Assembly: GCA_010356995.1 (NCBI GenBank)
Contig: ML996698.1
Coordinates: 54,379 to 118,378, forward strand
Source of the DNA: Trichodelitschia bisporula
Lineage: Eukaryota; Ascomycota; Dothideomycetes; Phaeotrichales; Phaeotrichaceae
Direction: 5' to 3'
Length of the DNA: 64,000 bases
Shown here: piece by piece, positions 27,831 to 60,824 of the stretch
Layout of the letters: every line of letters starts with the position of its first letter
How positions within the stretch are numbered: the first letter of the stretch is position 1
Translations under genes and position numbers: made by a program
Notes under the pieces: generated by a model
What the model was told of the DNA's origin: nothing
The model's input: the letters and a program-made list of their open reading frames with translations, nothing else
Database searches by the model: none

Positions 27831-29724
27831 ATGGACGCGAATAGATATTTCGGTTCTTTGCTTGCGATTGTTGTCTCTGCTGCGATTCATAGATACCTTT
27901 TGATTTCGCCTGTCGTTTGGGTAGACGAGATGGACTACTTCGTCCGCAGACCGTATCTTGTCCGTCTCTATGAACTCTAAATTCATGCAGCTAACAATGT
28001 GCAGGATGAAGTCTTCCACGTCGGGCAAGCTCGATACTACTGCCTCACGCACAATTTCTCATGGTGGGATCCGAAGATCACGACTCCACCTGGCCTGTAT
28101 GTTTTCGACCATATCTGGCCCCTGTCTAACAGCAGCAGCTACCTTCTCTCTTACGCGAAGTATCTCATCACAGGGCGGTGCTCAATAGACGCACTGCGGG
28201 AGCTAAACGCCAGCATCCTAAACCTCTCCCTCGCCCCCATCGGCCTCGCCCTCTATCTCCTCTCCAACCGTGTATCAACCCTTCGCGCCTTCCTCCAAAT
28301 CTTCCACACCAACGCCAACATCACCAACTTCCCCCTCCTCTTCTTCTTCTCCGGCCTGTACTATACCGACGTAGCCTCAACCTTCTTCGTCATCCTCGCC
28401 TACACCGCATCTCTCCCCTCGGGCCACTCATTCCGTGTCCTCGAACTCGTGGCAGGTGCTGCGGCGCTCTGGTTCCGCCAAACTAACATTTTCTGGGTCG
28501 CTGTTTTTCCCGCTGGACTTAGGGTGGCGAAGGAGGTGCGTGAGTGGAATGAAGCGAGTCCCGCGGATACCAGCTTTGCGGGCGTGATTCAGGCGGCCTG
28601 GACCGAGGCGGCCGTGTATGACCCCGCCGTTGGCGACGCGGAGTTCGAAGATTACATCAAAGCCGCCCTCTCCATCGCCCTCGTCGCCGCCCGGCAACCG
28701 CACCGTCTCCTCCTCCCCCTCTTCCCGTACCTCACCCTCCTCGCCGGCTTCGCCAGCTTCGTAGCCTGGAACGGCGGCGTCGTGCTCGGTACACCCCTTT
28801 CCATGTTTCCGTGTCATGCTACGAGTCTTGCTAACCCCCACAGGCGACAAAAGCAACCACGTCGCCACAATCCATCTACCACAAATGCTCTACCTCTGGC
28901 CCTTCATGCTCTTCTTCTCATTCCCGCTTATCATTCCGCCCTTCGCCAGCCGGCTGATCGATGCATTCCGCTTACCGGCGCCGCGGCGCCTCGCGAATAC
29001 GGGGATTTTCCTGGCGTGTACGGGGCTGGCGCTGGCGGCGGTGCATTGGAATACTATTGTTCATCCGTTTACGTTGGCGGATAATAGGCATTATGTGTTT
29101 TATGTGTTTAAGATCCTGCGCACTTACCCGCTGTTGAAGTATCTGGCGGCGCCGGTATATGTTGTTTGTGCTTGGGCTACGATATCGGCACTGGGGCATT
29201 CAAGGGCGGTGGCGGGGGGTGGAGGAGGGAAGGCCGTGTCAAGAGCGCAGAGGATATGGGAACCGAAGGTCATTGAAGCGGAGGTCATTGAAGCGAAAGT
29301 CATTGAACCGGAGATCATTGAACCGAAGGTCATGGAGCCGAAGGTCATTAAACCGAGGGTCATTGGAAAAGAGGTGGCCAAGGCAAAAACGGTGATCCGG
29401 ACAAGCAAGGACGAGCCAGAGCTGGAGTACTCGCAGCAGCAGCCAAATGCGAGCTTTGTGCTCGTCTGGCTGGCAGCAACAGCCCTCTCTCTGGTGTCTA
29501 CAGCCCTGGTGGAGCCGCGGTACTGCATCGTGCCATGGGTGATGTGGCGGCTACGCGTTGCCAGCAAGGTAGAGGGGACGTGGGGATACAAATGGTACGA
29601 CTTCCGACTGGTGGCAGAGACGGTTTGGTTCTATGTCATTCAGGATGTTACGGGGAAGGCGTTCTTGCATCATGGGTATGAGTGGGCTAGCGAACCGGGA
29701 GCGGTACAACGGTTTATGTGGTAG
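27831..29724 (+). CDS. ALG10: Dol-P-Glc alpha-1,2-glucosyltransferase (ALG10/DIE2)
   Basis: ER multi-pass enzyme that adds the third, terminal glucose to the lipid-linked oligosaccharide Glc2Man9GlcNAc2 before N-glycosylation. Three exons: 27831-27959, 28005-28788 and 28844-29724; 1794 nt, 597 aa. The junction of exons 1 and 2 yields [18 protein letters not shown], matching the family's luminal PYMDExFHxxQAxxYC motif; this decides the unusual donor GTCCGT. The next motif is [14 protein letters not shown]. Later regions include [11 protein letters not shown] and the C-terminal [11 protein letters not shown] plus [10 protein letters not shown], both diagnostic of DIE2/ALG10. An insertion of seven 5-residue repeats at 29260-29364 sits in a non-conserved loop. 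Hydrophobic helices are distributed over the full length. Confidence 0.94.
29260..29364 (+). repeat. 15-bp tandem repeat (7 units) inside ALG10
   Basis: Seven consecutive 15-bp units of the form GAACCGAAGGTCATT encode E-[PA]-[KE]-[VI]-[IM] pentapeptides (last unit K-P-R-V-I). The array length is a multiple of three, so copy number can change without frameshift. Confidence 0.9.
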
Positions 29725-34538: not shown

Positions 34539-34917
34539 ATGCTCCCACCAGATCTCAAACAAAGGTTTCTCGGCTTATACGCCTTCTGCTCTCAAACCCT
34601 GAAAACGAGAGTCAGCGCCGAAGGATTATTCCCATTCGACTTTGAGCTCGAGACCGAGGAAGTCTACACCCTGCTCTTGGATTTCTTCACCGACTTAAAG
34701 GAGTGGGAAAAGACCGACGGTAAGTTGGAGAAGTTTTGCCATGGGGATTTGTGGTGGTGAGCGGAATATGCTAGTTCTAGATGTCTGTATACTTATACCC
34801 GGAGGCTGGCGGAGCGGGGCGGGGTGTCTGCCGCAGGAACGGCTCTGGACGGCGGGGCTTGTGCATCTTGAATGGCAGATGCAGAAGGTTAAGAAGGACC
34901 TTGAGGGTGAAAAATAG
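34539..34917 (+). pseudogene. Tandem family A, copy 1 (broken)
   Basis: First of five related genes with no family I recognise. ATG at 34539 opens MLPPDLKQRFLGLYAF and shares the core motif FELETEEVYTLLLDFFTDLK with the other copies. The frame hits TGA at 34758-34760, where copy 2 continues. Recognisable homology (YTYTRRL) goes on in the same frame after the stop, then switches frame: QERLWTAGLVHLEWQMQKV up to TAG 34917 matches the C-terminal end of copy 2. So this copy carries at least one nonsense change and one frameshift. Upstream it keeps the leader block at 34464-34482. The downstream splice-site-like and 3' block near 34982 is also conserved. Function unknown. Confidence 0.7.
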
Positions 34918-35142
34918 GTCGGTTGGCTATTCCCCTATGTGAGTATACTCTTACACTGAGTGTAGGGGCGAGTCTGTATTCTTTTGGCTGAGTGGGGAGA
35001 GTCTTGTGCCTGTGAGGCTGAGGGGAGAGTCCGGGCGGGGCGGAGGTGCGGGGTTAGGGTTATGGATGGGATGCTCTGCTGCCTGAGCCTCATCGACACT
35101 CGACAACCACACTATCGCAAATCGGCCATCCTCATCCCAATC

Positions 35143-35674
35143 ATGCTACCAGAGGATCTTAAATATCAGTTTTTAAGCGTAACTGTCTCCTGTTATGACA
35201 TCCTGAACCCGATATGCAAGATGGCACTCGCATGCGAGCCAGTGGAACCATATGACTTCAAGCTTGAGGCGGAGGAAGTTTTTACAATGATCTCCGACCT
35301 CGTATCTGATTTCAACGAACGGCAAAAGACAGCTACCGAGAAGCTTTGCGATAGCGATCTTGCCCGATGTTTAAAGGCCGCCGAAGATTTCTACACTTAT
35401 ACTACGTCTCTAGACAGAAGTCATTCGTCTGAGTCGACGCAGAAGACCAAATGGATCCGAAAGCTTCTTACCGCTCGGGTTGAATTTGCGATAGTCCGCG
35501 TAGAGCTCACAGACTACAGCGAACGAGGTAAATAACTAATCCCTAAACGAGCTTCTTCTTATACTTCGCGCAGAAGATAGAGTGCCTCATTTGGCTGAGT
35601 GGGAGGAGTCTCGTGCCTCTAAGGCTGAGGGGAGAGGGCGTGGAGAACATGGAGAGAGGGTCCTAGAGCAGTGA
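35143..35674 (+). CDS. Tandem family A, copy 2 (best-preserved member)
   Basis: Unknown protein, no recognised domain. Two exons, 35143-35527 and 35574-35674, with a 46 nt intron (GTAAAT, branch CTAAT, acceptor GCGCAG); 486 nt, 161 aa. Without splicing the frame stops at 35535 (130 aa). Sequence: MLPEDLKYQFLSV start, then the family core DFKLEAEEVFTMISDLVSDF, basic NERQKTATEKL and the conserved C/D..ARC motif (SDLARCLKAAEDFYTYT). The second exon encodes HLAEWEESRASKAEGRGRG. The pattern of hydrophobic residues suggests mostly helix. No signal peptide or membrane segment, so probably intracellular. This is the only copy whose frame crosses the conserved splice donor into the downstream block. 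Leader block CTGCTGCCTGAGCCTCATCG lies 66 bases upstream of the ATG. Confidence 0.6.
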
Positions 35675-36846
35675 TACTGGAGATGAGTGTGGGATTAGGG
35701 TGGAGAAGGCAATGAAGGACGATTTGAGCTTCTTTGACAGGGTTCCCTACATCTGGTATATGCGGAATACTCGCGGCAGGATTCGCGTGGCCTCCTAGCA
35801 TGGCTGATAGTTGGCGCTCGTCGCTTGGATCCAATGTCTTCTACATCGGCATCAATGCAGGTTGCTAACTCCTGGGAACTGTACATATGTGACTTCTATT
35901 CGGGCATTGAAGGCGATGCATCTGTTATGTATTGGGGGGGGATGGTGGGAGCTGGGAGGGAAGACTTAATGACTGAGGGTTGCATATTAAGGATGTAGGT
36001 GTATTGATCGCTACTGTTTTGGCGAGACTGTGCTTGGGTGTTTTGGGCGGTTGCCCGGCGATCGCGAGAATCCCCGCATTCGGCCCGCAAGGAACTACCC
36101 GTATCTGAAAAGGTTGTAGCCGCTCCGACCCGCAAAGGCGGCCCAGACAGGCAGCCACGACTTTTTCGAATAACACTTGATCCACCCCTGGCTCTCTGTC
36201 GTCTTGCAGCCCACTTTCAGGGGCGCACAAATCACTGGTTGCACAGCATTGGTTGTGGAATAACATTCATTGACAGCTTGAAGAAGTATGTAAGGGTTTC
36301 GCGTGTGAATGTGGAGTGTGGGGGAGCTGGGGGTGTTAGCGCACAGGCCAGCGCCAAGTCCTTATCCCTGCAAGTCCAGCCGGGCTGGAATTGCAGGGAT
36401 CAGGCATCAAGTTTACAGAGTCACGTGACCCACATAGGGCATGTGGCGATTTGACATGGGAGAGATGGTATCCTCCTATGACACCCACCTAGGGCGTGGG
36501 GAGAGAGAGAAGGAGGATGTGGGGTAACCATACGGTAGCTCGGACACCCCAGGCCTCACCTGCACCTACTCCGACAAGCTGTGCTGCCTAAGCCTCATCG
36601 CACCCGTACTCTAGCCATACTACTGCGTACTGTGGTAGCCGGCCTACCTATACGGCCTGTTGGTTCAAGGTGATCCGTGGTGTGGTGTCGGCGTCAGCCA
36701 ATCAAATCGACCATAGGATGTCCTGCCTCGCTGACACAAATGGGGCTCAGCAGCGCCACGAATGGACCTGCAGGCCATATACCAGGCTGAGTACCGCAGT
36801 ACGGATGTATGTACACATCGCACACCAGCCGCGCTCGTTGCGAACC
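35675..36846. other. Spacer between family A copies 2 and 3, itself duplicated
   Basis: No gene recognised. About 35895-35995 resembles about 37340-37460 (shared GAAGGCGATG, TGTTATRT, GTGGGAGCTGGGAGG-like blocks), and 36012-36075 resembles 34232-34290 (TGTTTTGGCGAGRCTG, then TTGGGCGGT, CCCGGC). A CACGTG E-box is at 36422-36427. The leader block of copy 3 is at 36581-36600. Confidence 0.5.
36621..36802. mobile_element. Possible small inverted-repeat insertion in the leader of family A copy 3
   Basis: In copies 1, 2, 4 and 5 the leader block sits 66-77 bases before the ATG; in copy 3 the distance is about 265 bases. The extra sequence is bounded by TACTGCGTAC (36621-36630) and GTACCGCAGTAC (36791-36802), an imperfect inverted repeat. 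Size about 182 bp. No target duplication is clear, so a MITE-like insertion is only one explanation. Confidence 0.3.
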
Positions 36847-37233
36847 ATGCTACCACCCGATCTTCAACAACAATATGTGGGCTTATATACTTCCTGCGAT
36901 GAGATTCTGGATATATTATACGAAGATGTATAAGAGCCAGGGTGACACCCACGGGACTTTGTGCTCGAGACGGAGGAGGTTCTTACTATAATCTCCGACT
37001 TCGTGAACGATCTCAACGAACGGCAAAAGAGTACTACCAGAAAGCTCTGCGATTGCGATTTTGCACGGTGTGCGAAGGCGGCGGAGGATTGGCATGCTTA
37101 TACTGTGGCTCTGGATAAGTCCGGGTTGAATGATTTGGGGTTAAGGCAGCGACCTAAGTGGGTGCGCCGGCTTTGTGGTGTTTGGTGGCAACTTTTGAGA
37201 ATCACATGGGAGGTTGAGTTTGGTGGGAAATGA
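36847..37233 (+). pseudogene. Tandem family A, copy 3 (two in-frame stops)
   Basis: ATG at 36847 opens MLPPDLQQQYVGLYTSCDEI. TAA at 36931-36933 and TGA at 36943-36945 interrupt the frame, which then resumes without shift: DFVLETEEVLTIISDFVNDL, NERQKSTTRKL, CDFARCAKAAEDWHAYT, ending at TGA 37233. Because homology flanks both stops in the same frame, nonsense mutation is more likely than an intron (the gap is far too short). The last codon lies just before a conserved donor-like GTACGT and a downstream TTTCCGCAG acceptor, as in the other copies. A translation start inside the second half (after 36946) cannot be excluded. Confidence 0.7.
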
Positions 37234-37334
37234 GGTACGTACCTGATACCTGAATGAGCATCCTCTCATACTTTCCGCAGGTGATTGCACGTATCATTTT
37301 GGCTGGGTGGGAGGAGTGCTGTGCATAGGTGACT

Positions 37335-37460
37335 CTCTTCGGGCATTGGAAGCATGAAGGCGATGGATTTGTTATATGGGGGGGAAGGAGTGGTGGGTGC
37401 TGGGAGGGGACGTCTTAGAACTGCGGATGTAGTGGTTGAGGTTTGCGCGTTAAGGATGGA
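37335..37460. repeat. Spacer repeat shared with ~35895-35995
   Basis: GGGCATTG, GAAGGCGATG, TTGTTATATGGGGGGG, GTGGGTGCTGGGAGGG and the following GCGTTAAGGATGG-like block recur in the same order in the spacer downstream of copy 2. This shows that duplication units include intergenic sequence and not only the gene. Confidence 0.6.
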
Positions 37461-37603
37461 TGAGCGGCAGGGAGGTAATCGTGGTGATGCGGGGTTGTGG
37501 GGAGGGTTAAGGATGCATGGGTGCTCTGCTGCCTGAGCCTCATCGGCCCGATCATTACTACACTTCATATCGCACATTAGAACTAGTCATCCTCATCGCA
37601 ATC

Positions 37604-37984
37604 ATGATCTCAATCATGCCAGCACCCACTCTTAGACAAGACATTCTGGACCTATATGATTCCTGCAGAGAGATTCTGGACCCAATAGCCAACGACGTGT
37701 CAAAAGGACAGCCGCCCTACAAGTTTGAACTCGAGCTCGCGGAGGTTTCAACCTTACTCTTCGATTTCCTAGTCGATTTTAAAGATCGGAAAGAGGTCGC
37801 TGCTAAGAAAATTTGCAAAACCGACGTAGCCCGATGTGCGTACAGCGCCGATGTACTCCGCAATTATACCGGGTTTCTACGCAGACGCGCGGGTCGTCCG
37901 TATACGCCAGAGCAGCTACAGAGGTGGAAGAGCCTGCTTGATTCTCTTTTGGCATATCTTTGCCAAATCAAGTCACTACAGTGA
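37604..37984 (+). CDS. Tandem family A, copy 4
   Basis: Unknown protein. ATG at 37604 (MISIM) or, in register with the other copies, 37616 (MPAPTLRQDILDLYDSC). The frame is intact to TGA 37984: 126 aa from the first ATG, 122 from the second. Core: YKFELELAEVSTLLFDFLVD, FKDRKEVAAKKI, TDVARCAYSADVLRNYTGFL, and a basic C-terminal part with PYTPEQLQRWKSLLDS. It ends KSLQ, about eight codons before the conserved donor GTAAGTGG; the downstream acceptor CCAGCAG (ending at 38057) and 3' block are kept but become untranslated. Leader block at 37527-37546. Most similar to copy 5. No domain recognised. Confidence 0.55.
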   Translation: MISIMPAPTLRQDILDLYDSCREILDPIANDVSKGQPPYKFELELAEVSTLLFDFLVDFKDRKEVAAKKICKTDVARCAYSADVLRNYTGFLRRRAGRPYTPEQLQRWKSLLDSLLAYLCQIKSLQ

Positions 37985-38299
37985 ACTCCACTCAAGAGAG
38001 AGGGTAAGTGGGCACTCCCTAAATGAGCATGAGCATCTCCTCACTTACTTCCAGCAGGCGATCGTGCGCATTCTTTTGGCCGAGTGGGAGGAGTGTTGTG
38101 ACTTTGAAGGAGAGTCCGCGTGGGAGGGGGGAAGCATAGTGGGATAGGTTTGCGTGACAAGGATGTGGGTATGTGGGGTATGCGCCAGTAGTGATGTGGG
38201 GATGAGGAGGAGCGGGGGTGTTCTGCTGCCTAAGCCTCATCGGCCCGATACTTCATATCACACATTAGAACTAGTCGTCCTCAGCAGTAATTCTCAACC

Positions 38300-38675
38300 A
38301 TGTCAGTACGGAATCTTAAAGAAGAGATTCTGGACTTACATGCTTCCTGCGTTGAGATTATGAACCAGATAGCCGAGAGCGTGCAAAAAGGAGAGCCGCC
38401 AAACAAGTTTGAGCTCGAGACCGCAGAAGTTCACACCTTACTCTGCGATTTCGTAAGCGAATTCAACAACCGGAAAGAGATCGCCGCCAAAAAGATTTGC
38501 AACAACGACTTAGTCACGTTGTATGGAGGTGGCCGAATATCTTCACACTTTTACCGAGTTTCTGGACAAACGCGAAGGGGGCCCCCTTTCATGTACACCG
38601 GAGGAGCTACAGACGAGGAAGGACCTATTTACCAGTCTTTCGGGGGGTCTTCGCTTTATCAAGTTATCACAGTAA
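38300..38675 (+). pseudogene. Tandem family A, copy 5 (frameshift)
   Basis: ATG at 38300 opens MSVRNLKEEILDLHASCVEI and runs through KFELETAEVHTLLCDFVSEF and NNRKEIAAKKI. After NNDLV, at about 38513-38520, an apparent one-base insertion relative to copy 4 moves the frame. In the +1 register the homology continues (EVAEYLHTFTEFLDKREGG, then CTPEELQTRKDLFTSL) to TAA 38675. The literal frame instead ends at 38686 with unrelated residues. Leader block at 38223-38242, 77 bases before the ATG. Downstream donor GTAAGTGG and acceptor CAAGCAG are conserved. Confidence 0.7.
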
Positions 38676-38686
38676 ACCCCACTTAA

Positions 38687-40392
38687 GAGAGAAGGTAAGT
38701 GGCTAATCCCTACATGAGCATGAGCATCCCCTCACACTACCTCAAGCAGGGGATAATGCGTATTCTTGGGCTGAGTGGGAGGAGTGTTAGTCTTCGAGGT
38801 TGAGGGGAGAGTGCGGCGGGGGGTGTGGCGAGAAAGTCTTTGGGCGGGCACAGCGGAGATGAGCGCAGGATTGGGGCGGAGGGGGTTGTGACGGAGAACT
38901 AAAGGTGTAAGTTGGCTGGGACAAAAGGCTCCAGACGCGCGGATTCTCCGCTTCGGCGTTTGCTCTCTGGTTCCGAGATCCGGTTTTCGGCTTCTTTGCC
39001 CGGGCTTGAAGGTATCCGAAGCCGGAGGTACACGGTAATGGAACGGAGTTCAGGCGTCCTCGTGCTTTCGGCGCTTGCGTGGTCGGGAAGCTTTACACCC
39101 CTGGCAATGTGCCTGGGCGGGGAGTCGGTTGGCTGCGGCCGTCGGCACGTCGGAGGCGTAGTGAAGGTGCCGGGTTTCGGGATGCCGACATCGCCGAGCC
39201 GCATCCCGAGTTTAATTTATGGGAGACACCACCGTCGATACCGACGGGAAAACAAACTGGACGTTTATTCTACTGGCATATATACTACGCATGCCCCGCG
39301 GTCACAACCATGTTGCTAACAGCGTGATCGGAGGAGTTCCAGCTCAGTAATTGCGGGCCACGGGACGGACGACCCTGGTGGGGCCTGGGGTTCAAAGCCA
39401 GACGGAGGATATGCGTCTCTTGGACCATGACCATACAGAGGCTGATGGTTCTAGGACCTGGATAGAGAAAAGGTTGCTTCTATCTTTAACGGCGATGCGT
39501 GTATTCCGACAGTCAGCTTGACCAGCCAGTCCACGAGCAAGAGGGCGACCGCCAAAACCTCTCAGATTGCACGGTGGGACCGTGCTTCGAGTGAACTCGA
39601 ACTTTCATTCCACCCTTAAGGTTCATAATGGGACCACTTCACTGCACCATGCAGAGGATGACGCATCTCGTTCCCAATTCCGCGCCCGTCGGCGGCAGAG
39701 TCGGGCCCAAGGGTAAGTTGAGCGTCACTGCTGCCCGGCGGATGCGTATTGCATGGCGACTGGGTACTCCACGCGGGAGAGGGCCAGGCCGCAGCGGCGA
39801 GCAATCGGGGTGATGACATTACGACGGGGGAGGAGTACAGCGAAGCTCCGGGTCTCCATTTCCATCAACAAGACCGATCTGAGGAACTGATATGGTTCCG
39901 TGAGACCGGCAACCGGGATGGCCTAGACGCGGCTGGTACGCTTGCCACGATTTCATCAGGGATTCCACCTGGCTGACCTGTTGCCGGTGCTGTACTGGCA
40001 TGGGCTGCAGATGTGAGCCAGTGCTTCTAGTTTCCCTTGGAGTCGCTTACTCCCCTCCGTTGTTCAGTGCGACCTCGCCTCGTGCCCGTTCCCAAGCTCT
40101 CTGAATCATGGATCCCGTCGCTTTATAGCATGTCCGCTTTCCATGGTTCGACAGCTCACCGCAGTCATCCTCCCCCCCAATGACGACACTCTCTGCGTCA
40201 CTCCCACGTGGCAGTCCACGCGGCCCTACGGCTATCAATGAAGAAGTTCGAGAATCTAGTAAAGTCAGTCGGAGTCCCCCATCTCCGCCACGGCTTGGCT
40301 TTGGCATATATACTTCCCCAAGACGCAGACATCTCCCAGGATTTCCTCCAACACCATGCGCACCTCACACCTCACCACCACCCCCCATCACA
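38687..40392. other. Spacer between family A and the modular gene
   Basis: About 1.7 kb. Starts with the 3' block of family A copy 5 (near 38767). A TATATA motif at about 39281-39287 precedes a short frame at 39310 with no continuation, possibly a dead promoter. An open frame at 38912-39319 shows no recognisable features. I see no clear gene. Confidence 0.4.
40307..40312 (+). promoter_or_regulatory. TATA-like element of the modular-exon gene
   Basis: TATATA within CATATATACTTCCCC, 81 bases before the ATG at 40393, with a C-rich leader (CACCACCCCCCATCACA) directly before the start codon. Spacing and context fit a fungal core promoter. Confidence 0.5.
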
Positions 40393-43300
40393 ATGTCTGA
40401 CCCCTCCTTACCCCGCTGCTACTGCCCAAATAGGTATGAGTCCGGCGTTGGGCTCGACCCAATAACACACGACGACACAACCATGTTTCCGAACTACGAC
40501 TCCGCGGACTTAGCTTGTCGCCATCAAATATGCTGCTACCTCAACATCTTGAGCGGAAGGGGCGTCCACCGCGCTCTAGAGGCACCCGTCTACAGCGCCT
40601 CGCAGACCCCCCTCGGCATTGCGGTCGGTGACGATGACGATGACGAGGACGAAAAGGGCGAAGACGACGAAGAGGACGACGACGTCGAGTACAGTGACGA
40701 GCCGTACGGCAACTATTACATCGACTCAGAAGGCGATGTCGAGATCAAGTTGTTCGGCTCCAATCGCGGGCTGCTCGGCTCCAATTCCGCGTTGCTCGGC
40801 TATAATCACGGGTTTTACAGCTCCAATCCCGCGTTGTTCGGCTTCATTTCCGCGCCATTCGACTCCAATCCCGCGTTGTACGAACCCGATATCGACTCTC
40901 CCCTGGAGCAGATGGCTGCAGATATCCAGTCCCGCAAAGAAGACGCTAAATCCACCGGAAAAACTGGTATAGAACCGGGGTAAGCCTCTAGACGCGCAAT
41001 CCCGCGGACGTCTGAAATAACCGATAGATTTGGCTGACAGAATTGCTTGTAGACACGAAGCCGGGCGGGCCGAGCGGGAAGAGTCCAATGCTGAGCTCGA
41101 GCGTGTCGACTACAATTCAACGAGCGATGCCGACCCCACATCATTCGGCTCCGAGCCTAGCATGGAGCGCGCCAGGTTCGCCAACCTAATACAGCAGCTG
41201 GACGCCACAATTGACCGCTGTAAAGCTTGCGCCGCAACACGCATCCGCCGCTCCAGCTTAGTTGACCGTCCTATCTTCAAGCAGATACTTGCGGACATCG
41301 ACGACATCGACGTGGAATCCCCCGATGAAAATGAAATAGAAGAAGGGTATGCCTCCCGGCCCGTAGTCCGGCAGACGTGCGGAATACCCGGCAGGTTTGG
41401 CTGACAAGATTGCTTGTAGCTTCGAAGCCTGGTGGGCTGAGCGGGAAGAGTCTAATGACGAACCCGAGCGTGTCGATCACAATTCCACGAGTGATGGCGA
41501 GCCCACGTTGTTGGACTTCGATTCCAGCACGGATCTCATCTCGCGCGCCCACGACGACCACGATGACCACGGTAACGACGAAAACAATGAGAACGACGAT
41601 GTCGAGTCCGATGACGATTCCGACCGCAGCGAGTACAGGCTCACGTTGTTCGGCCCCGATCGCGGCACGCCTATCACCCCGGGCGCCGACGATGACGAGC
41701 CCAAATTCAGTTTTATGGACTTCTACAGCGACATCGAGTCCTGGTTGCGCAACCTCGATCCCACCGCGGATCCCGCCTCGCGCGCTGGCCGACGCCGACT
41801 GCTGGCCGCCATCCGCGACCAGCTCTACAAGGAATACGGCCCGCACAAGGGCCATCCTTTGGACTCATTTGCCCACACGGATCCCAGCCCGAACGCCTGC
41901 CAACGCCGGGACGCCATCGGTTATCTGTTCAGCAGGGACGCCGACGAGTTGAGGTGGGAGCGCGACCTCATCGATCGTGATATTATGAGCGAGGTCGAGC
42001 TTGCCGAACGTCGTCGATGGGAGGACGGCTGCCGCCCAGCTATCCTCGCCATGACTGTCGGCTTCACCGATCGCCCTGAGGGACCCGACCCCGGCGCCTG
42101 CGAAACACCCCACTCTCCCTTCGAGCAGATAGGTCCAGACAGCCAAATCCGCGAACCAGACGCGGAACCCATCTCCGAAACAGGAACAGAACAGGGGTAT
42201 GTCTCCAGACCCGTAGCCCTGCGGACGTGGCGGAAAAGCCGGCAGATTTGACTGACAAAACTGCTTGTAGATACGAAGCCGGGTACAAAGCCGGATACGA
42301 AGCCGGGTACGAAGTCGGGCGGACCAAGCGGGAAGAGTCGAATAATGAGCCCGAGCGCATCGATCACAATTCAACAAGCGATGGCGAGCTCACGCCGTTT
42401 GTCTTCGATCCCAGCATGGATCTCACCTCACGAGCCAGCCAACTTCGACTGTTGGAGGTCATCCTTGACCAGCTCGACATATATGACCGCTCCAGCGAAG
42501 CCGAGCGGGTCGAGCGGGAAAAGTCTAACGATGAGCCCAAGCGCATCGATCACAGTTCAACGAGCGATGACGAGCTCCCGTTGTCCGGCTCCGACACCGG
42601 CACGGATATCACCCCGCGCGCCAGCCAACTTCGACTGCTGTACGCCATGATTAAGGGCTTCAGCACTCGCCGGGTGGCACCGGTCCCCCCCTCCCGCCCA
42701 GTCAGCCATCGTACGGTCGGCGAGCAAATGGCTGAAGACACTCAAACCCGCGAAGGAGGCGCGGGACCCACCGGTGAAACAGGAAAAATGGGGTACGCCT
42801 CCAAACCCGTAGTCCTACAGACGTGCGAAATAACCGGCAGATTGGGCTGACATAATTGCTTGTAGATCCGCAGCCAAGCGGGCCGGGCGGGAAGAGCCGA
42901 ATAATAAGCCAGAGCGCATTGATGACCATCTAACGAGCGATGGCGAGCTCCCGTTGTCCGGCTCTAACACCAGCACGGATATCACTTCGCGCGCCTTCCA
43001 ACATCAACTGCTAGACGCCAGGATTAAGTGCATTAACACTCGCCGGGCGGCACCTGTCACCCCCTCCCGCCGAGTCAACCATCGTACCATCGGCGAGCAA
43101 GTAGCTGAAGACATCCAAGCCCACGAAGGAGGCGCGGGACCCACCCGTACAATAGGAGAAATAGGGTACGCCCCCAAACCCATAGTCCTGCAGACGTGCG
43201 AAGTAACCGGCATATTTGGCTGACAAAATTGCTTGTAGATCCGCAGCCGAGCGGGCCGAGCTAGAAGAGTCTAATAACGAGCCCGAGGGCATCGATCAGG

Positions 43301-43763
43301 ACTCAGCGAGCGATGATGAGCTCCAGCCGTTCGTCCTCAATCCTAGTATAGATCCAACCTCGCCCGCCAACGAAATTCGAGTGCTGAACGCCATGATTGA
43401 CCGCTGCAGCGCTCTCTCCGCAGCACTCAACCGCAGCTGCGGCGCAGGCGACCTCCGGACCTTTAGTCGGATAATTGAAGCCATGCCCCCCGTTCCCGAA
43501 GTAGACTTGGAATCCATCCATGGAATAGGACTACCGCTTGAGTATGCCTCCAGACCCCGTAGTCCCGCAGACATGCGGAACAACTGGCAGATTTGGTTAA
43601 CAAATTTGCTTCTAGAGACGAAGCCGGGCGGGCCGAGCGGGAAAAATTGCGTGCGAAGGCCCGGGCGGAATGGTCCCCCCCAGACCCGCCGAGCACGGAA
43701 TACTTAAGACAACTGCAAGCGGCCTTGACTAGTTTGAGGGAGAGTACTGAAAGGCGGCCATGA
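40393..43763 (+). CDS. Modular protein built from tandemly duplicated symmetric exons, unknown function
   Basis: Seven exons: 40393-40979, 41053-41346, 41420-42196, 42271-42792, 42866-43165, 43239-43541 and 43616-43763; 2931 nt, 976 aa. All six introns split a codon at the same phase (after the second base), so every internal exon is a multiple of three. Exons 2-7 begin with the same module, [EA]-A-G-R-A-E-R-E-E-S-N, then in most copies EPERIDHNSTSDGEL and a Ser/Asp stretch, then a helical part such as ASQLRLLEVILDQL. Exon 1 differs: a Cys/Pro start, an acidic run (residues about 77-97) and six heptapeptide repeats. Exon 4 holds two modules without an intron between. The protein is acidic, has no signal peptide or membrane helix and matches no family I know. 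Joined frame contains no stop. An in-frame upstream ATG (40180) is less likely because TATA lies between. Confidence 0.72.
40756..40881 (+). repeat. Six tandem 21-bp units (heptapeptide repeat) in exon 1
   Basis: Six units read G-S-N-R-G-L-L, G-S-N-S-A-L-L, G-Y-N-H-G-F-Y, S-S-N-P-A-L-F, G-F-I-S-A-P-F, D-S-N-P-A-L-Y. DNA units follow GGCTCCAATYCCGCGTTGTTC. Confidence 0.85.
40980..43615 (+). repeat. Six near-identical phase-symmetric introns
   Basis: Introns at 40980-41052, 41347-41419, 42197-42270, 42793-42865, 43166-43238 and 43542-43615 (73, 73, 74, 73, 73, 74 nt). They share GTAYGCCTCC at the start, a central CCCGTAGTCC..CAGACGTGCG block, TTTGGCTGACA (branch region) and TTGCTTGTAG at the end. 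No other intron in the window resembles them. Confidence 0.85.
42272..42319 (+). repeat. Four 12-bp units at the start of exon 4
   Basis: TACGAAGCCGGG repeated four times with small changes, giving YEAG-YKAG-YEAG-YEVG. It expands the first residues of the module that other exons carry once. Confidence 0.85.
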
Positions 43764-50423: not shown

Positions 50424-51130
50424 CTATGACACAACCGCCTCGAGCATTGCCCAGTCGTTTTCACCGACGCCTAACGGCAGAGAGTCCTCATCACCTTCTT
50501 AGTCGTCGTCGTCGTCGTCGACGTCGTCGTCCTTATCCTCTCTCACCTCCTCGCCTCCCACCGAAGCTGGGCACGAGCCATACCTCCCATCACCACATCC
50601 AACGCCTCCTGTGGCGCAAACCTACCCATCCGCACCATCGTCATTATCTGGGTTGGATCTACCCGCGCCGTAGACACAATTAAATCCTCGAGCATCTCCA
50701 TCTCGACCTCTCGCGACAACCAAGGGGGGATTGACGCATTCCCTTGGCTGCCTCATGCACCGCATCCGCCCATGTAATCTCGCCCCGCCGCACCCGGGGC
50801 ACCAACGGCTCTGGATCCCGCCCACACTCCATACAGACCTCCCTCACAAGATTATCCTGCTGCTCAGCTCCACCTCCGCTCATCTCACCTTCCCGAAGCA
50901 TCCCACGAGCCGCTTCCCTCAACCTTGCATCCAACGCATCTTGGTAGGTAATCCTACCCGCCCGCACTTCTAGCAGCGCCGCCTCCGGATCCGCCGCCAT
51001 GCTCATCATAAGCATCCTGAAAATCTCCTCTTGCCTCTGCCGGGAAGTTCTTCCGGCACCGTGACCGTTCCCGCCACCCGGGCATCCACCACTTCTTCCA
51101 GTGTAACCTTACCCATCCGCACATTCTGCA
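50424..51130 (-). pseudogene. Second copy of the DPE/RxG repeat protein, broken
   Basis: Homology to the gene at 49386-50249 is scattered over shifting frames. In order: LQNVRMGKVTLEEVVDARV (near 51130-51074), ADPEAALLEVRAGRITYQDA with LDARLREAARGML, then RDPEPLVPRVRRGEITWADA with VHEAAKG (50680-51015), then in another frame VDPTQIMTMVRMGRFAPQEA (50560-50690), and finally GENDWAMLEAVVS ending at TAG 50424. At least two frame changes and a TAA (just after the Asp run) separate the blocks. Four modules are visible, so the intact ancestor had more copies than its neighbour. The 5' end abuts, and slightly overlaps, the stop codon of TCF25. I see no conventional introns that restore one frame. Confidence 0.55.
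50500..50535. repeat. GTC trinucleotide microsatellite
   Basis: GTCGTCGTC... with one GACGTC interruption, encoding an Asp run on the minus strand in the broken repeat-protein gene. Confidence 0.9.
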
Positions 51131-54118: not shown

Positions 54119-55481
<1,363 letters not shown>

Positions 55482-59452: not shown

Positions 59453-60824
59453 GTGCAGTCGATCTGCCTTGACAATCAAGACTTCTACCGCAAATCGAGA
59501 ACTCTCCACAAGAACGCTGCACTCTTTCTACGATATGACGACCTTGAACCCGGCCGGCCTTTGAACGGTGAGAGATTCGAGAAACCTGCCTATAAGTTTG
59601 CTGACGACCAGAGTCGCAAACTTGTCCGGCGGGCTATCTGCCAGTATCTTCGAATCGACAACATCCCTGCCTGGCAGGTATGCGAGTCATACCTTAGGTG
59701 GGAGGTATGGATGCCGGCAGATGAGGCCATTCAGCTCTTCCGGGTCGGGCCTGATGGGAGGGTCTTCGCGGTTGCCAGTGATGGGTTGTTACAGGAGCTT
59801 CATGCGAATTCGAGGTCTCCTTGCGAGGCGTACGAGGAACAATGTCTCTGAGGTCAAACTGGTGTTAAGTTTTTCTGTTTTTCTCGGGACGGGTGGGACC
59901 TGGCGTTGGTGGCTGATTGAGCTATCCATGGGTGATGCTTACTTACCCCCACACAGATGTCGTTCCTCCTTGAGCTCGCCAAGCGGGCTCTCCGCGTGGC
60001 CATTCCCCGTAAGTAGCAGTAAACGCATTTGATTCTTTGCGGCAGTGCTAACGAGCTTCAAGTCGACCGGCCTTCCCTTGAAAAGGAGAACACTAACGAA
60101 CTGTTTCGAACCAAAGCTTGCAGCCGGTCGTTCTCTCCCCCCGATGCGACATGGGAAGAACTAATCGACGAAGACCCCACAGGGAGCTTTGTCTTCAACT
60201 ATACCAAATCTACGCAAAGCCTTGTCAACAGCGGTCTCGCTGAGTTCCTCTTCGACCGCATCGAGAAATCGGAAATGGGAACAGCATCCACACTCACTCT
60301 CAACTCTCCGACCACAGTCATTCACTCAAACCCACCACCACATCGTATACATGGTTTCGACCGGCTATATATTGGGCGGGCACCTCCGCAAAACACCTTC
60401 CAAGCATCGTGGCCATTATACCATTGTAGCTAAGCGCTTTCTTCATTAGGCACATCATTCGCCGCACCGTCTGCCCCATTGAGCTGGAGCGGCGGCCAGT
60501 CAAGCGTTACTGCGTCCGTGCGGTGGAGCAGTAACACGTCTTCGGACGTCTTCGCCGGCCGAAGGACCCCCTAAGCTCCGCCTCGTGGACAAGACTATCA
60601 TCACCCACTTTGTTCACGACTACTTGCGTCCGTGCGGTGGAACACTAACACGTCTTCGGACGTCTTCGCCGGCCGAAGGAGCCCCCAAGCTCCACCTCGT
60701 GGACAAAAACATCATCACGCACTTCCTTCACGACTACTACAATGACCCGGACAACCCTTTGTTCGCGACTCTCTTGCCGACGGGGCCAGACTGGCCACAC
60801 GCTCTTGTGTGGATCTTGAAGTGA
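59453..60824 (+). pseudogene. Coding-like block B, related to block A, unknown family
   Basis: Open pieces: 59453-59851 gives LNGERFEKPAYKFADDQSRK, VRRAICQYLRIDNIPAWQVC, ESYLRWEVWMPADEAIQLFR, GPDGRVFAVASDGLLQELHA. At 59959, after acceptor-like CCCCACACAG, comes MSFLLELAKRALRVAIP with donor-like GTAAGT, then from about 60063 VDRPSLEKENTNELFRTKAC, ATWEELIDEDPTGSFVFNYT, LVNSGLAEFLFDRIEKSEMG. After two frame changes the last piece (about 60540-60824) is SPAEG.PKL.LVDK.IITHF repeated, ending HDYYNDPDNPLFATLLPTGP and ALVWILK. Its first part resembles block A at 56491-56550. Pieces look like real protein; the gene is either multi-exon or decayed. Confidence 0.35.
60511..60738 (+). repeat. In-frame 114-bp tandem duplication
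   Basis: Copy 1 at 60511-60624 and copy 2 at 60625-60738 begin TGCGTCCGTGCGGTGGA and share TAACACGTCTTCGGACGTCT and CGCCGGCCGAAGGA, then CTCGTGGACAA. Period 114 bases is 38 codons; both copies are open in the same frame (RPCGG..TRLRTSSPAEG.PKL). Confidence 0.85.

Follow-up and report, generated by a model that had tools for sequence, protein, structure and literature searches.

A fungal repeat gene probably lengthened by tandem duplication of introns together with exon sequence

How does a gene come to carry six introns that resemble each other? This question is raised by a locus of the Dothideomycete Trichodelitschia bisporula (order Phaeotrichales; GenBank assembly GCA_010356995.1, contig ML996698.1). 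The locus lies on the forward strand, at positions 40393-43763 of the 64,000-nucleotide (nt) stretch that was analysed (contig positions 54,379 to 118,378, here called the window). Seven exons and six GT-AG introns join into a single frame of 976 codons, with a stop codon that ends at 43763. An earlier note, made from the sequence without database searches, had explained the pattern by repeated unequal duplication of an intron-exon unit, with the spread of introner-like elements as an alternative.

We consider it likely that this single-copy gene reached its length through a series of local tandem duplications, that several of them copied an intron along with adjoining exon sequence, and that selection holds the frame while the residues evolve fast. 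Each duplication would have lengthened the gene, and at least one of them, between two modules of exon 4 (from 4a to 4b), would have lain entirely within an exon. As all introns share phase 2, any number of units would leave the frame unbroken. All six introns would be spliced, and the product kept in frame by selection would be an acidic, mostly disordered intracellular repeat protein.

Duplicated units and their flanks

The coordinates, the six introns of 73-74 nt with GT-AG ends, their common phase and the stop-free frame given in the earlier note were all reproduced (Table 1). Exons 2 to 6 are each divisible by three. GT and AG are kept in all six introns, and five of the six have CTGAC about 15 nt upstream of the acceptor, the exception being intron 6 with TTAAC. 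To call the introns nearly identical was an overstatement, as the 15 pairwise identities range from 74 to 90%. Likewise, the opening E-A-G-R-A-E-R-E-E-S-N that had been assigned to exons 2 to 7 is exact in exon 2; the translations of exons 3, 4, 5, 6 and 7 match it inexactly, at 9, 8, 7, 8 and 8 of its 11 positions, and in exon 4 a 36-nt stretch of GYEA/GYKA repeats comes before it. Five more copies of a 153-nt reference module are present, with 71-79% identity.

The exon flanks of the introns were compared without gaps, over 45 nt on each side and for all 15 intron pairs, skipping the 36-nt repeat of exon 4 for intron 3. The threshold was 47%, a value that 99% of randomly drawn in-register exon pairs do not exceed. 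On the 3′ side the identity is 62-82%, above the threshold in 15 of 15 pairs. On the 5′ side seven pairs exceed it, with 51-84%; the other eight reach just 29-42% in this gapless comparison, which is a first point against our account. These counts indicate that the following exon was always copied with the intron, and that the preceding exon end was copied in some cases or has since changed.

Could the introns instead have multiplied by themselves? Target-site duplications are among the insertion signatures of introner-like elements. An intron that had copied itself several times into one gene would explain why the introns are alike and why the upstream exon ends of eight pairs are not clearly so, and the species belongs to the class for which PMC4457414 describes such elements. 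Here, however, the similarity is not limited to the intron: the exon start downstream of it is duplicated in every pair, with a divergence like that of the introns themselves. A mobile intron would be expected between non-duplicated exons, a pattern that is not seen, which leaves this reading unsupported. We also searched the genome (25.65 Mb in 30 contigs) with three intron patterns, two halves and a middle, allowing up to three mismatches and using reversed controls. The patterns gave 5, 4 and 3 matches, all within the gene, and the controls none; as they detect no more than 5, 4 and 3 of the six introns in the gene itself, this result rules out copies of reasonable similarity only, and strongly diverged dispersed copies could be missed. 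We hold the spread of introner-like elements to be very improbable. The earlier note had suggested a DNA search of the genome with one intron as a check. It returned the query intron and missed its five sisters, and so was judged too insensitive to count.

Comparisons at fixed offsets describe how the units are related. At 373 nt the identity is mostly 0.8-0.9 from exon part 4b through intron 4, with no step at the splice sites, and it fades within exon 5/6. At 367 nt the segment that runs from the end of exon 1 across intron 1 to the start of exon 2 matches the one from the end of exon 2 across intron 2 to the start of exon 3, with an identity of 0.6-0.85, and at 186 nt the intronless duplication of 4a and 4b appears inside exon 4. 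At 377 nt, which relates introns 5 and 6, the likeness fades shortly 3′ of the intron, a second point against our account. Gapless sliding at the larger offsets of 851 and 596 nt loses register after small indels. Exons 2 and 6 are 39% identical over 90 aligned positions (expectation value, E, of 2e-14), while exons 1, 3, 4 and 5 share another tail, a pattern that suggests repeated rounds of duplication with units of unequal size. Nor did the gene grow in uniform steps, as the 186-nt piece in exon 4 and further pieces in exon 3 are intronless. Loss of an intron at the junction of 4a and 4b was considered and rejected, because the unit tail is absent there as well as the intron.

We compared the divergence of introns and exons in five units, leaving out module 4b and intron 6 with exon 7. 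On average, intron interiors differ by 0.238 and codon positions 1, 2 and 3 by 0.265, 0.263 and 0.307, respectively; of 99 fourfold sites, 33 differ. Among these units the intron interiors are merely slightly slower than the exon positions, and the idea that the introns are specially conserved was rejected. The dinucleotide indices of repeat-induced point mutation are not raised in the gene (0.65 and 1.05, against 0.65 and 1.19 in the window). Repeated local duplication of intron and exon thus stands up, on the grounds that exon flanks were copied with the introns, that introns and exons diverge similarly and that the patterns and proteins used found no other copies in the genome.

Reading frame, splicing and product

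Is the joined frame used? Its only stop is the terminal one, and the five other frames carry 18-56 stops. In a neutral simulation of the 731 codons of exons 2 to 6, with 0.15 substitutions per site, a mean of 7.7 stops arose and none of 1000 runs remained stop-free; at 0.10 and 0.05 substitutions per site, 0.2% and 5.8% of runs did. A codon-usage score, trained on eight conserved open reading frame (ORF) pieces from the window, ranks the proposed frame above its five alternatives in exons 1 to 6, and a score of synonymous choice only gives the joined gene 0.020, against -0.049 and -0.152 for the off-frames. Retention of any one of introns 1 to 5 would truncate the protein (to 196-845 amino acids, aa), and omission of any single exon from 2 to 6 leaves the frame intact. 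Among six modules of 44 codons, the ratio of nonsynonymous to synonymous rates (dN/dS) ranges from 0.30 to 1.16, with 13 of the 15 pairs under 1. Judging by these patterns in the DNA, residues are replaced quickly within a reading frame that is preserved.

The remaining points against our account concern the gene model. In exon 7 codon usage does not favour the proposed frame, and the synonymous-choice score of the joined gene is lower than that of all eight reference pieces (0.027-0.153). If intron 6 is retained the frame still runs, to 982 aa, and a 14-codon upstream ORF (40356-40400) overlaps the proposed start codon. The dN/dS is near or above 1 in two of the 15 module pairs, as is also expected of a weakly constrained gene, and for the youngest pair, 4b and exon 5, it is about 1.2 (bootstrap 0.65-2.73). 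A single deposited protein was found for the locus, EJ06DRAFT_64797 (346 aa). It begins within exon 2 but off-frame, has intron 2 in common with our model and terminates in intron 3; shorter pieces from other exons could escape the length limits of the search. As the deposited model has only one of the six introns in common with ours, some introns may not be spliced, and splicing at all six junctions is inferred from the DNA sequence.

Several of these points would also fit a partly spliced repeat locus, in which the real product is short and similar to the 346-aa model, with most introns retained or unused, or in which the gene is decaying. The deposited model speaks for a short product, and the codon usage of exon 7 and the dN/dS of the youngest pair are consistent with either form. 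However, the off-frame start of EJ06DRAFT_64797 falls in a stretch where five other modules match in the proposed frame, which favours that frame. Furthermore, frame and freedom from stops are maintained over the 731 codons of exons 2 to 6, and GT and AG are conserved in every intron and CTGAC in all except one, which also speaks against a short product or a decaying gene. We think this alternative rather improbable. The gene is probably mis-annotated in public records, from which most of it appears to be missing.

The predicted protein has an isoelectric point of 4.4 and a net charge of about -101. A charge-hydropathy plot places six of the seven exons on the disordered side, and exon 3, folded by itself without an alignment, gives no reliable fold (mean predicted local distance difference test score, pLDDT, of 43.8). 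These predictions suggest that the product is probably a disordered acidic repeat protein. Our best guess, made with low confidence, is that it is intracellular and has binding or scaffold properties.

Does the fast change of residues reflect more than weak constraint? Between 4b and exon 5 there are 40 differences among the 195 sites of codon positions 1 and 2, 13 among the 98 of position 3 and 7 among the 73 of the intron. An addition to the duplication account would be that positive selection drives the units apart, for instance because they form a surface for recognition or interaction, and that recombination provides new ones. The contrast between positions 1 and 2 and the intron (Fisher P 0.046) is in line with this. 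Related comparisons, of the intron with all exon sites (P 0.11) and of position 3 with positions 1 and 2 (P 0.15), are not significant, and this is one pair and three tests; the bootstrap interval of dN/dS given above includes 1. Positive selection is therefore not established, and with most module pairs below 1 we regard it as unlikely. An actively diversifying modular gene is a further and distinctly doubtful idea. Such a gene would gain and lose units by recombination without effect on the frame, the residues of new units would outpace the introns, and a choice of splicing would add length variation within a strain.

Table 1. Positions of the exons, introns and repeated pieces of the gene within the window
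Feature	Position	Strand	Description
Exon 1	40393..40979	+	195 codons and 2 nt; acidic stretch, 21-nt repeats; codon usage favours the frame
Tail piece at 3′ end of exon 1	40905-40969	+	also present towards the ends of exons 3, 4 and 5 (matches at 42122, 42721, 43094; repeat family D7)
Intron 1	40980..41052	+	73 nt, GT-AG, phase 2; CTGAC branch-like motif
Exon 2	41053..41346	+	294 nt; only exon with the exact EAGRAEREESN opening; like exon 6 over most of its length
Intron 2	41347..41419	+	73 nt, phase 2; only intron of the six in common with EJ06DRAFT_64797
Exon 3	41420..42196	+	777 nt; module at start, then acidic stretches
Intronless module-like pieces in exon 3	41628-41687, 41755-41829	+	resemble parts of the module
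Intron 3	42197..42270	+	74 nt, phase 2; EJ06DRAFT_64797 reads into it and ends there
Exon 4	42271..42792	+	522 nt; 12-nt repeats (GYEA/GYKA), then 186-nt intronless tandem duplication (modules 4a, 4b)
Youngest visible duplication	42499..43324	+	373-nt tandem repeat, 82% matches: exon part 4b and intron 4, exon 5 and intron 5, start of exon 6
Intron 4	42793..42865	+	73 nt, phase 2; 90% identity with intron 5
Exon 5	42866..43165	+	300 nt; copy of exon part 4b at the 373-nt period, 80% identity
Intron 5	43166..43238	+	73 nt, phase 2
Exon 6	43239..43541	+	303 nt; resembles exon 2
Intron 6	43542..43615	+	74 nt, phase 2; TTAAC in place of CTGAC, acceptor TTCTAG
Exon 7 and stop codon	43616..43763	+	shortened module, followed by a terminal part that is not repeated; the least certain of the exons

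Copies, relatives and neighbouring genes

By protein and module-composite searches of the genome this is a single-copy gene. The seven matches listed for the protein are all its own exons, and so are the six found with a composite of the modules at E <=10. A separate comparison gave weak matches beyond the gene; the best has an E of 0.072 in tblastn and of 0.004 in blastn, the latter being a GTC-type simple repeat near 50504.

The statement that the protein matches no known family holds for searches of protein, Pfam and, for exon 3 only, PDB sequences. With the full-length protein 8000 candidates were scored and none reached E <=10, under length limits that excluded the 346-aa EJ06DRAFT_64797. 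A 400-aa piece, compared with 6626 candidates, gave EJ06DRAFT_64797 as its sole match at E <=1. Protein searches found no homologue outside Trichodelitschia bisporula, and other fungal genomes were not scanned for unannotated copies. In Pfam no family passed its cut-off, rows for Yae1_N and CC2-LZ falling below theirs, and exon 3 had no match among PDB sequences at E <=1. A search of a plasmid collection, which says little, gave no match, and none of the titles in the literature searched is on this gene.

In the adjacent region upstream (34539-38800, same strand) a small orphan gene is repeated five times as a tandem array. The copy from 35143 (161 aa, one intron) is identical to EJ06DRAFT_531288, and the array matches at 34539 and 36847 are interrupted by stop codons. 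Across the genome the family is represented by at least 20 matches, spread over eight contigs, and a search for homologues in other species found none in 28 candidates. The last exon of the array copies (near 34986, 35593, 37303, 38080 and 38768) has GCTGAGTGGGAGGAGT-like letters (AEWEES), which recall the AEREES of the focal gene. An origin of the focal gene from this array is unsupported: local alignments with the five copies are no better than with shuffled sequences (P 0.50-0.72, a weak test with permissive gap costs), and a profile comparison gives a probability of 0.1%.

A CENP-N/CHL4 gene lies directly downstream of the focal gene. The window also encodes the exportin CRM1, RasGEF, ALG10, a CHY zinc-finger gene, TCF25, Coa1 and Anp1. 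Two other repeats were recorded: a 15-nt unit repeated seven times (29260-29365), just past an ORF piece that matches ALG10 in Pfam, and two tandem copies of 114 nt with 90% matches (60511-60738), near the window's far end.

Comparison with known systems

Where does this gene stand among known cases of similar introns and repeated exons? The introner-like elements of Dothideomycetes share with it the recurrence of similar introns in a fungus of that class (PMC4457414); here exon sequence is duplicated too and no copy was found outside the gene. A survey of introners (PMC9860276) removed similar introns that stem from duplication of a longer region or from paralogous genes. The SP7-like effectors of Glomeromycotina (PMC11333574) are also fungal proteins with imperfect hydrophilic repeats and have a conserved intron near them. 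That intron precedes the first repeat, whereas the introns of our gene lie between repeats, and no sequence relation is claimed.

The leucine-rich repeat (LRR) genes of Tetrahymena are closer in form. According to PMC6564038 they hold arrays of 90-bp exons, for which unequal crossing-over has been proposed, possibly with retrotransposition. Tandem arrays of exons, with phase 2 introns flanking each repeated exon, are found in both systems. In Tetrahymena, however, thousands of genes are involved, with an LRR domain and a uniform exon length, while here there is one gene without a recognised domain, in which exons 2 to 6 measure 294-777 nt.

The nearest parallel is CNN00420 of Cryptococcus neoformans (PMC2395259). 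This gene has three identical introns, with splicing supported by expressed sequence tags and a repeat number that varies among strains. Both are single-copy fungal genes with six introns, several of which are alike through the multiplication of longer repeats spanning a complete intron and the exon ends beside it, and both contain short exonic repeats. Tandem repeats of this kind within one gene, which characterise CNN00420, are found here as well. The unit is about 107 nt long in CNN00420, against 373 nt for the clearest unit of our gene. Furthermore, the three introns there are identical, while those described here, which are known from one genome sequence, are 10-26% apart.

The route of exon and intron duplication has thus already been described, in CNN00420 and on a large scale in Tetrahymena, and the present gene is a further, well-marked and diverged case. 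It offers a readable record of how introns and length can be acquired together, by duplication and not by intron insertion, in a fungal class for which introner-like elements were described. As in CNN00420 the repeats run through exon ends and whole introns; here the units have diverged sufficiently for some of the duplication events to be placed in order.
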